In this document: positions 50,233-52,297 of the stretch, one piece after another | Position numbering within the stretch: position 1 is the stretch's first letter | Layout: every line of letters starts with the position of its first letter | Assembly: GCF_900116425.1 (NCBI RefSeq) | Contig: NZ_FPAS01000006.1 | Span: 186,001 to 250,000 of the forward strand | Origin: Lishizhenia tianjinensis | GTDB taxonomy: Bacteria > Bacteroidota > Bacteroidia > Flavobacteriales_D > Crocinitomicaceae | Reading direction: 5' to 3' | DNA: 64,000 bases | Notes under the pieces: generated by a model | Told to the model about the DNA's origin: nothing | The model's input: the letters and a program-made list of their open reading frames with translations, nothing else | Databases searched by the model: none | Made by a program: the position numbers and the translations under genes

Positions 50233-51135
50233 ATGTCGATTACGGTAAAACATCTTACAAAATATTACGGACAGCAAACCGCTGTAAACAATATTTCTTT
50301 CGAAGCTAAAAAAGGTGAAATCCTTGGTTTTTTAGGTCCAAACGGAGCAGGAAAATCAACTACAATGAAAATCATTACTGGATTTATACCTGCAAGTGAA
50401 GGTCACGTAGAAGTTTGCGGTATGGACGTAAATGAACACCCTATAGAAATCAGAAAGAAGATTGGATATTTGCCCGAACACAACCCTTTGTACCTCGACA
50501 TGTACGTAAAGGAATATTTGAGTTTTGTGGCAAAAATCTATAAGGTTAAAAACGTAAAAGCGCGCGTTGCCGAAATGATACAAAAAGTTGGTTTAGAAAA
50601 AGAACAACACAAAAGAATTGGAGCATTATCCAAAGGATACCGTCAACGTGTTGGTTTAGCTCAAGCCATTATTCACGATCCAGAGGTATTAATTTTAGAT
50701 GAACCTACTTCAGGACTTGATCCTAACCAATTGGTAGAAATCAGAGCCTTGATTAAGAAAATTGGAGAAGAAAAAACGGTTATGCTTTCTACGCACATTA
50801 TGCAAGAAGTAGAAGCAATTTGTGACAAAGTCATCATTATTAAAAATGGAGACCTCGTAGCCAACAATACCGCTGCAGAATTACAAAACCAAACGGAGGA
50901 AGTAGTTATCTACGTAGAATTTGAAGGGGATATTTCTCGTAACCAATTAAAAACAATAGAAAATGTTTCAAGAGTGGAGAAAATTAGTAACTCAGCTTTC
51001 CTATTGAGCGGAAATAAACAAAACGATTTAAGAAAAAATATTGCTTCATTTGCACAGAAGAATGAATTACTCATTCTTACTATGAAAGTTGAAGAAAAAA
51101 GTTTAGAAGAGGTATTTAAGGCCCTCACTAAATAA
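50233..51135 (+). CDS. gldA: Gliding motility ABC transporter ATP-binding protein GldA
   Basis: A 300-residue cytoplasmic ATPase. Walker A GPNGAGKSTTMK, signature LSKGYRQRVGLAQAI, Walker B VLILDEPTSGLD and the switch His in STHIMQEVE are all present. The C-terminal extension (~220-300) is typical of GldA. In Flavobacterium it pairs with the membrane protein GldF and GldG; in F. johnsoniae gldA is also located away from gldFG, and neither is in this window. The GldA/F/G transporter supports gliding in some species but is lost in others. A promoter-like TTATCTTCGTG lies 18 bases upstream. Confidence 0.92.
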   Translation: MSITVKHLTKYYGQQTAVNNISFEAKKGEILGFLGPNGAGKSTTMKIITGFIPASEGHVEVCGMDVNEHPIEIRKKIGYLPEHNPLYLDMYVKEYLSFVAKIYKVKNVKARVAEMIQKVGLEKEQHKRIGALSKGYRQRVGLAQAIIHDPEVLILDEPTSGLDPNQLVEIRALIKKIGEEKTVMLSTHIMQEVEAICDKVIIIKNGDLVANNTAAELQNQTEEVVIYVEFEGDISRNQLKTIENVSRVEKISNSAFLLSGNKQNDLRKNIASFAQKNELLILTMKVEEKSLEEVFKALTK

Positions 51136-51166: not shown

Positions 51167-51260
51167 TACTAAAAATAAACTCATGATTACAACTGGTCTC
51201 CACCAATTGTCTTCACGACTAACCAAACGGTGTTATTTTTAATAGCGTTGGAAAAAAGTC

Positions 51261-51297
51261 AAAAAAAAACCAGAAGAACACCTTCTGGTTTTTTTTC
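51261..51297. terminator. Bidirectional terminator between gldA and the ssb genes
   Basis: Hairpin AACCAGAAG/CTTCTGGTT with a five-base loop, flanked by A9 on the left and T8 on the right, in the middle of the convergent region. Confidence 0.9.
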
Positions 51298-51316
51298 GGT
51301 TGATTAGAAATGAGAT

Positions 51317-51643
51317 TTAGATAATAGTAAGATCACTTGCTTCAACTGCAATAATGGTCTGTCGCAATCCTTTTTTGTTCTTATAAAAGCGAGAAACCAT
51401 CCTTCCTTGTACGCCCAAAGGTCTACTCTTATACCCAAGCTCTTGGATCAATCTTGCCAATCTTCCCGTTGCAACGATATTGTGCCAATTACTCATTCTC
51501 ATCGTCTTCCCTTCTTCGTCTAAGTAAGGTTCATTCGTTCGCAAACTAAAAGTTGCTTTAATCGTTCCGTTTTCTTCCGAAAATCGAGGTTCATTCGAAA
51601 TCTGTCCAATCAGATTCACGTGGTTGATGTTTAGGATTTCCAT
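51317..51643 (-). CDS. Short single-stranded DNA-binding protein, second copy
   Basis: A 108-residue OB-fold protein of the SSB family: NHVNLIGQISNEPRF, FSLRTNEPYLDEEGKTMRMSNWHNIVATGRLARLIQEL and VQGRMVSRFYKNKKGLRQTIIAVEA are the usual SSB strands. It ends at the last OB strand and lacks the acidic tail that real housekeeping SSB uses to recruit partners. It lies five bases after the stop of the paralogue at 51649 and differs strongly from it. It probably binds single-stranded DNA but its role is unknown. Confidence 0.88.
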   Translation of the reverse strand: MEILNINHVNLIGQISNEPRFSEENGTIKATFSLRTNEPYLDEEGKTMRMSNWHNIVATGRLARLIQELGYKSRPLGVQGRMVSRFYKNKKGLRQTIIAVEASDLTII

Positions 51644-51648
51644 TTTCT

Positions 51649-52008
51649 TTAGTTTTTAGAAGTTTGGTTTTCTTTATTCTCTTTGATCAATACAAAGTTT
51701 TGCATCTCAATTTGTGTGGTGTAGTGTTTCTCACCATTCTTATCGACGTAATCATTGTTTACCAATTTACCGTCAAGAATAATCTCTACTCCTTTGGATA
51801 ACTTCCCTTCAATTGAAGAAGCGGAGTTTCCCCAGGCAACTATCTTATGCCACGATGTATTCTTTACCCATTCACCATTTTTATCGCGGTAGCTCTCGTT
51901 AATTGCAAGGGTAAACTTTGCCATTTTTCTTCCTGCTTTGAATTCTCTTAATTCTGGATCAATTCCTAATCGTCCGATTAATTGTACGTTGTTTCTTAAA
52001 TTGTTCAT
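51649..52008 (-). CDS. Short single-stranded DNA-binding protein, first copy
   Basis: A 119-residue SSB-family protein: NVQLIGRLGIDPELREF, FTLAINESYRDKNGEWVKNTSWHKIVAWGNSA and IILDGKLVNNDYVDKNGEKHYTTQIEMQ, closer to housekeeping SSB than its neighbour. The tail is Lys/Asn/Glu-rich (KENKENQTSKN) with no DDDIPF-type end. The gene starts the two-gene operon. A housekeeping ssb probably exists elsewhere in the genome; this pair may serve recombination, natural transformation or repair. Confidence 0.92.
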   Translation of the reverse strand: MNNLRNNVQLIGRLGIDPELREFKAGRKMAKFTLAINESYRDKNGEWVKNTSWHKIVAWGNSASSIEGKLSKGVEIILDGKLVNNDYVDKNGEKHYTTQIEMQNFVLIKENKENQTSKN

Positions 52009-52297
52009 GATTGAAAAGTTTTAATTAAATAATCTGTTAAGTTTTTGTCTAGCGTTGATCCTTCAATCACATCGACACTGCAAAGATTTATAGCTTTCTA
52101 GTCTGCTTTCGGTTATTAAGCATTTGTAGTCGATTATTAGTCGTTTGTAAGCGAGTAAATACGGATATAAGCAGGAAATACGATGAAAAGAATAAATTCA
52201 AATTCCAATAAAAAAAACAGCTCAATTTCTTTCTCTCGCCTTCTCCCCTCTGCTTTAATATTTCTATTTTTGGACTTCACGCTTTTTTTGCCCTAGT

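Follow-up and report, generated by a model that had tools for sequence, protein, structure and literature searches.

Lishizhenia tianjinensis carries, in the window (i.e., the whole stretch of 64,000 nucleotides that was analysed), two adjacent genes for short, tailless members of the single-stranded DNA-binding protein (SSB) family, which we regard, with moderate confidence, as part of an accessory SSB operon insulated from the SSB hub and representing a dedicated second system for coating single-stranded DNA (ssDNA) under its own control. Comparative sequence analyses established the anatomy and ancestry of this operon, the missing C-terminal tips, the retention of ssDNA-contact aromatics in paralogue A and in nearly all copies of paralogue B, and a private promoter array. 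Extra bacterial SSBs are usually encoded by single genes and have been explained by competence, phages, or plasmids; by contrast, most of the family Crocinitomicaceae keeps three tailless paralogues (A, B, and C) in a fixed-order operon with a private promoter array.

Both genes of L. tianjinensis are located on the reverse strand. The first gene of the operon, ssb paralogue A (51649-52008), encodes a tailless protein of 119 amino acids (aa) with a short polar C-terminus, and the second, ssb paralogue B (51317-51643), encodes a tailless protein of 108 aa that groups with the B proteins of relatives; the A-B spacer comprises five bases (51644-51648), and both proteins score above the cut-off of 26 bits for the Pfam SSB family PF00436 (97.3 bits, E=6.6e-28, for A and 53.3 bits, E=3.2e-14, for B). 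A preliminary description had placed two SSB-family genes of 108 and 119 aa five bases apart, with which the open reading frames (ORFs) and the PF00436 matches agree; its statement that the proteins share the OB fold but little sequence is borne out by an identity of 31% between A and B over their aligned part, and the lack of an acidic tip that it reported is evident from the C-termini (...EASDLTII and ...ENKENQTSKN). The neighbours that it named were also identified, with gldA (50233-51135; TIGR03522, 448.9 bits, above cut-off) convergent on the downstream side and a gene for a transglutaminase-core protein divergent on the upstream side. No replication-restart or ribosomal gene was recognised beside the pair.

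With regard to transcription signals, a terminator-like site consisting of an 18-pair stem and a T tract (51260-51298, reverse strand) is located 18 bases past B, where relatives continue to gene C; three terminator-like sites were found in the 1.3 kb scanned, versus 0.8 expected from shuffled sequences. Sigma-70-type promoters at the locus numbered three, versus 3.8 expected. The presumed 5' leader, defined by position, extends from a -7-like box to gene A (52009-52070, reverse strand); while hairpins were seen by eye, folding barely exceeded that of shuffled sequences (mean z of -0.95 over 71 loci, with z below -1 in 29 of the 71), and we therefore claim no leader structure.

Relatives of L. 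tianjinensis carry a longer version of this operon. A B profile search identified 152 loci encoding a relative, and the best 80 of these were taken as named loci; their titles include Brumimicrobium, Fluviicola, Taishania, Lishizhenia, "Crocinitomicaceae bacterium", and others, and several titles of metagenome-assembled genomes (e.g., Chryseobacterium, Glaciecola, or Actinomyces) look wrong. As B was the bait, its presence at these loci is given by construction, and the informative part is the neighbouring A and C. Short ssb ORFs in the fixed order A-B-C on one strand were found at 79 of the best 80 of 152 loci; at the 80th (L154), the contig ends after B. The A-B arrangement is hence not absent from relatives, where it is kept within the triplet. 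Median gaps at the best 80 of 152 loci were 28 nt between A and B (range -38 to 139) and 19 nt between B and C (range 0 to 593). A triplet was also present at all 29 other-genome loci from a search with P0001 (three ssb ORFs each), and some SSB match to P0001 occurred in 99 of 100 family genomes. Of the tandem pair initially described, the chromosomal location, the lack of tails, the divergence of the paralogues, and their arrangement in one operon held, but most of the family has the A-B-C triplet rather than a pair.

In a FastTree phylogeny of 273 sequences, A (81 sequences), B (81 sequences), and C (79 sequences) each formed a single clade, with SH-like support of 0.95, 0.999, and 0.90, respectively, where the A and B clades include the proteins from the window. 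Recent duplication was rejected as an origin of the pair, as this tree places A and B in distinct clades of ancient origin. Two genomes with A and a second, A-like copy (G004 and G010) have this second copy adjoining B+C in the tree (support 0.83), suggesting that A probably arose first, followed by the pair and last by the triplet. The A-B pair of L. tianjinensis, the one genome of its genus in the collection and one from which gene C is absent, looks like the remainder of a three-gene unit that has lost C. According to the reading that we favour, A would descend from a short, tailless ssb that many Flavobacteriales have as a second gene beside a tailed housekeeping ssb; in the Crocinitomicaceae, A would then have developed into an operon encoding three OB-fold-only SSBs in the fixed order A-B-C, of which L. 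tianjinensis would have kept A and B.

The B profile was also run on 249 genomes of the order, including 91 of the same family. All B matches of at least 121 bits were in this family, and the best match outside of it reached 111 bits. B (E of 1e-35 or better) was present in 67 of the 91 family genomes, while 16 were intermediate, with A-like pairs, a diverged B, or a cluster at a contig break (G093), and eight had a single SSB match (E of 1e-12), indicating that the operon is dispensable. Genomes of other families often had two matches, representing the housekeeping SSB and an A-like gene. Two ssb clusters each were observed in Brumimicrobium salinarum (L081 and L101) and in G042 (C4 and C25).

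Conserved synteny was not found around the operon, as flanking genes are common only to subsets of loci, with the largest neighbour family present at 18 of the best 80 of 152 loci. The upstream gene points away from the operon at 59 of 76 loci, and a same-strand gene within 100 nt is present at 2 of 76 loci upstream and 4 of 76 loci downstream. Phages and plasmids commonly carry a second ssb gene, and both A and B fall into phrog_44, a broad family of phage SSBs, which would fit with the genes being mobile-element remnants, i.e., former phage or plasmid ssb genes; we consider this highly improbable, though, given that each paralogue forms one clade across the family, that the sole shared mobile neighbour is an ORF recognised by eye as REP-type transposase-like and located downstream at 6 of the best 80 of 152 loci, and that the viral contigs of IMG/VR yielded a single weak relative. 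The initial observation that no phage or plasmid gene lies near the pair extends to the relatives, in the sense that mobile neighbours common to the loci are lacking.

The L. tianjinensis genome encodes four PF00436 proteins, including A, B, a housekeeping SSB of 155 aa, and a divergent SSB of 148 aa. A tailed, full-length ssb is present elsewhere in this genome; its 155-aa product ends in DDDLPF, and the gene is flanked by gldE on one side and by a mutY-like gene (recognised by eye) on the other. The 148-aa SSB (L006, 7732-8178) ends in NEEDF and is encoded after an amidase-like gene (recognised by eye), and relatives possess this SSB as well (L191 and L192). Housekeeping SSBs in genus g2 (L219-L223) are unusually divergent, with 32-40% identity to that of L. 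tianjinensis (5 genomes), as compared to 53-68% for the other 23 genomes. While a C-terminal PF was found in all 18 housekeeping SSBs of one set, it was found in 0 of 80 A, 0 of 80 B, and 0 of 79 C proteins (best 80 of 152 loci); a C-terminal LPF was present in 26 of 26 housekeeping SSBs of a set that partly overlaps the 18 and was obtained from 29 genomes, one of which had no match and two of which were removed by a position filter. B and C mostly end at the last OB strand, and VIL/IIL and IGL are the commonest ends.

Residues that contact ssDNA are largely kept. Positions here and below are given in nominal E. coli SSB numbering, and residue frequencies refer to the best 80 of 152 loci. Position 54 is W in 80/80 A, 77/80 B, and 67/79 C proteins, position 60 is W or F in 80/80 A, 79/80 B, and 79/79 C proteins, and position 88 is Y or F in 80/80 A, 80/80 B, and 78/79 C proteins; position 40 is Y or F in 75/80 A and 79/80 B, but in 27/79 C proteins. 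In L. tianjinensis, A keeps all four ssDNA-contact aromatics and B keeps three of the four, with T at the position of E. coli F60. The AlphaFold2 model of B has an SSB OB fold (pLDDT 92.1) with SSB chains as its top Foldseek matches, and the best PDB matches of the B profile are the Thermus two-stretch chains 2ihf and 2fxq.

The three paralogues also differ at positions that may concern subunit contacts. Position 80 is a tetramer-interface site through a K7-E80 contact. This position is E in 80/80 B versus H, T, or S in 77/79 C proteins, position 76 is E in 80/80 A versus Q, K, or R in 76/79 C proteins, and position 7 is H in 78/80 B proteins. PMC3991886 assigns H55, Q76, and Q110 to tetramerisation and also describes the SSB of F. 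psychrophilum as a tetramer even though only the histidine is kept. Once the housekeeping SSB is corrected for, the distances among A, B, and C still co-vary (partial r of 0.83-0.86 in 26 genomes and of 0.71-0.80 in the 23 genomes outside genus g2), and partial r for A, B, or C versus the housekeeping SSB, given another paralogue, ranges from -0.12 to 0.55, where the housekeeping SSB serves as a single yardstick and linked genes can share history. Together, these sequence patterns suggest A/B/C hetero-oligomers. One could go further and propose a three-subunit SSB similar to RPA, with A, B, and C forming one complex of unequal OB folds, as is consistent with the fixed order on one strand, the paralogue-specific interface positions 76 and 80, the co-evolution of the three proteins, and the precedent of unequal OB folds in a single chain of Thermus/Deinococcus SSB. 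This proposal appears rather doubtful to us, however, as L. tianjinensis does without C, A is accompanied by a single further gene in G004 and G010, and other families often have A alone; in addition, an AlphaFold2 chain reading through A, B, and C (7 sequences) yielded a pTM of 0.37 and a mean pLDDT of 65. A packing of the A-B-C fusion was not retained, since at this pTM no confident packing was obtained. In the accessory operon that we favour, the roles of A, B, and C would be unequal, and the proteins might possibly form mixed oligomers.

Upstream of gene A, the promoter array of the ssb operon (52071-52155, reverse strand) consists of phased half-sites and then a -7-like box, CTTTGCAGTGTCGAT, and is in register in 75 loci. 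At 64 of 79 loci, the 200 nt preceding A contain CTTTGCA, versus 0.75 expected. When loci were stacked without gaps on [CT]TTTGCA, 75 of 81 (including the locus in the window) were in register, with the box invariant by construction and the flanking bases unselected; the six loci outside the stack either had no upstream sequence (L079 and L124), variant boxes (L085, L127, and L153), or a misplaced match (L107). When 49 rows were aligned with MAFFT, a one-base gap was introduced in just three of them, namely L105, L164, and L165, the latter two from another family. CG steps at -68, -58, -47, -37, and -26 from the box are present in 26, 66, 72, 21, and 67 of the 75 loci, respectively, with spacings of 10 and 11 bp, i.e., one helical turn. 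The box is mostly CAACTTTG and resembles the Bacteroidetes -7 element TANNTTTG, mostly without its first T; a strict TTG-N17-23-TANNTTTG promoter was found at 0 of 79 loci, versus 0.8 expected. For F. johnsoniae, PMC6847099 describes the -7 element TANNTTTG together with AT-rich motifs at distances of one and two turns on its upstream side, so that general promoter architecture may account for some of the phasing.

The array site in the window scored 63.2 bits with profile R1, of which it is one of the 49 building rows, and it showed no mismatch to a 25-position pattern for which it is the only site in its genome. When run on 26 genomes with three mismatches allowed, this pattern identified 16 sites in 15 genomes, all 16 at ssb genes by position, as well as one control hit; the triplet-bearing G008 was missed, and no site was found in three cluster-less genomes. 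A profile of the whole element had matches in 143 of the 249 genomes of the order at an E of 0.01, where the weak ones include chance matches, and in seven other families at 1e-8 or better, but none in at least six family genomes, including G016 and G075, which have several SSBs. Among its best 30 sites (one per genome), 29 were followed by an ssb ORF within 300 nt, and the other was at a contig end. As a second array in the L. tianjinensis genome, only a weak match (E of 0.09) was detected, which was attributed to chance given its core-matrix score of -17. The operon promoter looks, from these comparisons, unusual, private, and conserved with the ssb genes, and a putative regulator that binds the phased array would switch the operon.

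A small number of array cores are located away from ssb genes. The core directly precedes a gene for a tyrosine recombinase of the XerA/integron-integrase-like type (NF040815, above cut-off; cores at L274 3098-3146, L276 3043-3091, L277 3061-3109, and L280 1315-1363) in four genomes that all belong to one genus (G090, G017, G063, and G051), and in G066 a core (L275 3232-3280) is located about 230 nt upstream of recQ (TIGR01389, above cut-off). For three of the four recombinase genes, the contig ends at a distance of about 1 kb or less, which is what repeats would produce. R1, which was built without the recombinase and recQ sites, matched them with E-values of 1.6e-7 (G090), 6.0e-7 (G066), 1.7e-6 (G051), 8.8e-6 (G017), and 1.9e-4 (G063), and their core-matrix scores were 23-40, as compared to -2.9 for the highest-scoring other site of the window. 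Eighteen weak array regions, none of which scored above 17.0, were dismissed as chance, as were the array candidates in G025 (17.0) and G023 (-5.8). The core profile R2, which has the four recombinase sites, the recQ site, and one orphan among its rows, gave E below 1e-4 in 40 genomes only at these four recombinases, recQ, the orphan, and ssb arrays (assigned by position). Partial matches beside a similar recombinase were found in another family (G112, G134, and G175; 23.7-24.5 bits), and the one of these scored by the matrix fits on the opposite strand (22.2). The orphan array (L272 4209-4291) belongs to G082, which lacks the ssb cluster and has just one SSB match, and is followed by a gene A-like start and then by unrelated sequence; it looks like a deletion scar.

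As the array is common to the ssb operon, tyrosine recombinases, and one recQ, it points to recombination over replication. The sites suggest a "recombination regulon" of few cases, with most genomes having no second array target and the four recombinase cases falling in one genus. A bolder combination, in which A, B, and C form hetero-oligomers that divide labour in an RPA-like manner and are separated from the housekeeping SSB by the lost tip and altered interfaces, and in which a new candidate Flavobacteriales regulator, binding the helically phased half-sites, also governs recombinases and recQ, seems unlikely to us. Control by a Bacteroidetes LexA-like repressor, which would make the proteins DNA-damage (SOS) SSBs, could account for the recQ with an array in G066, and PMC8565304 reports evidence of SOS regulation for ssb and recQ in several Bacteroidetes. 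Nevertheless, the upstream regions of A contain GGA-N5-TCC at 0 of 79 loci (0.75 expected) and CTAA-N5-TTAG at 2 of 79 (0.2 expected), the latter in the near-identical L096 and L099, and the array consists of phased direct repeats, unlike the published palindromes, which renders this explanation quite improbable. The upstream region in L. tianjinensis has neither GGA-N5-TCC nor CTAA-N5-TTAG.

A role in competence merits more weight, although we see it as a tentative possibility. The proteins would then resemble the SsbB of Bacillus and Streptococcus, which stores ssDNA imported by ComEC and passes it to DprA and RecA. A tailless accessory SSB beside a tailed SSB fits this role, particularly as S. 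pneumoniae SsbB without its 7 C-terminal residues is reported in PMC3128108 to keep its reservoir function. ComEC and DprA are both present in L. tianjinensis, and G033 (L043) is the one genome in which a comEC match was noticed close to the triplet, on the strand of the latter and with its end about 1.4 kb upstream of gene A. However, ComEC was found in 49 and DprA in 50 of 50 genomes, including 7 of 8 and 8 of 8 cluster-less ones, respectively; as both are near-universal with or without the cluster, their co-occurrence is uninformative on competence. Moreover, no competence gene was seen under array sites in those surroundings that were read. For the accessory operon that we favour, the most economical function, by analogy with SsbB, would be ssDNA protection in recombination or uptake; the proteins would coat ssDNA, either recombination intermediates or imported DNA, without recruiting partners of the acidic tip. 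The operon allows one to ask what an SSB does once it is off the tip-docking network as well as whether bacteria build mixed SSB oligomers, and the array, which in a few genomes is common to recombinases and recQ, provides a handle on a possibly recombination-related control circuit in Flavobacteriales.

Literature searches yielded no paper in which we recognised a triplet of tandem tailless ssb genes, but several known systems share parts of this arrangement. PriB is a tailless OB fold of about 104 aa that arose by ssb duplication and is encoded with ribosomal genes. The proteins described here share its short, tailless OB fold, and the PriB structure 1woc appears at Foldseek rank 37 for the B model; however, SSB chains outrank 1woc, and a PriB model was absent among the 14 (B) and 20 (A) NCBIfam matches. 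Thermus/Deinococcus SSB likewise has unequal, duplicated OB folds, but these are joined in one fused housekeeping chain, as opposed to separate tailless chains beside a housekeeping SSB. Staphylococcus aureus is not known to have an A-B-C operon. This species resembles most Crocinitomicaceae in having three SSB paralogues per genome (SsbA, SsbB, and SsbC), as described in PMC5945547, but one of its three is the main SSB, whereas the three genes considered here are extras beside a tailed SSB and form one operon. Finally, SsbB of B. subtilis and S. pneumoniae is, like A, B, and C, an accessory OB-fold SSB beside a main SSB (B. subtilis SsbB, 3vdy, is at Foldseek rank 40 for the B model). Competence expression is stated for SsbB in PMC3128108, and SsbB is encoded by a single gene in a different phylum, unlike the A-B-C triplet of the Crocinitomicaceae.
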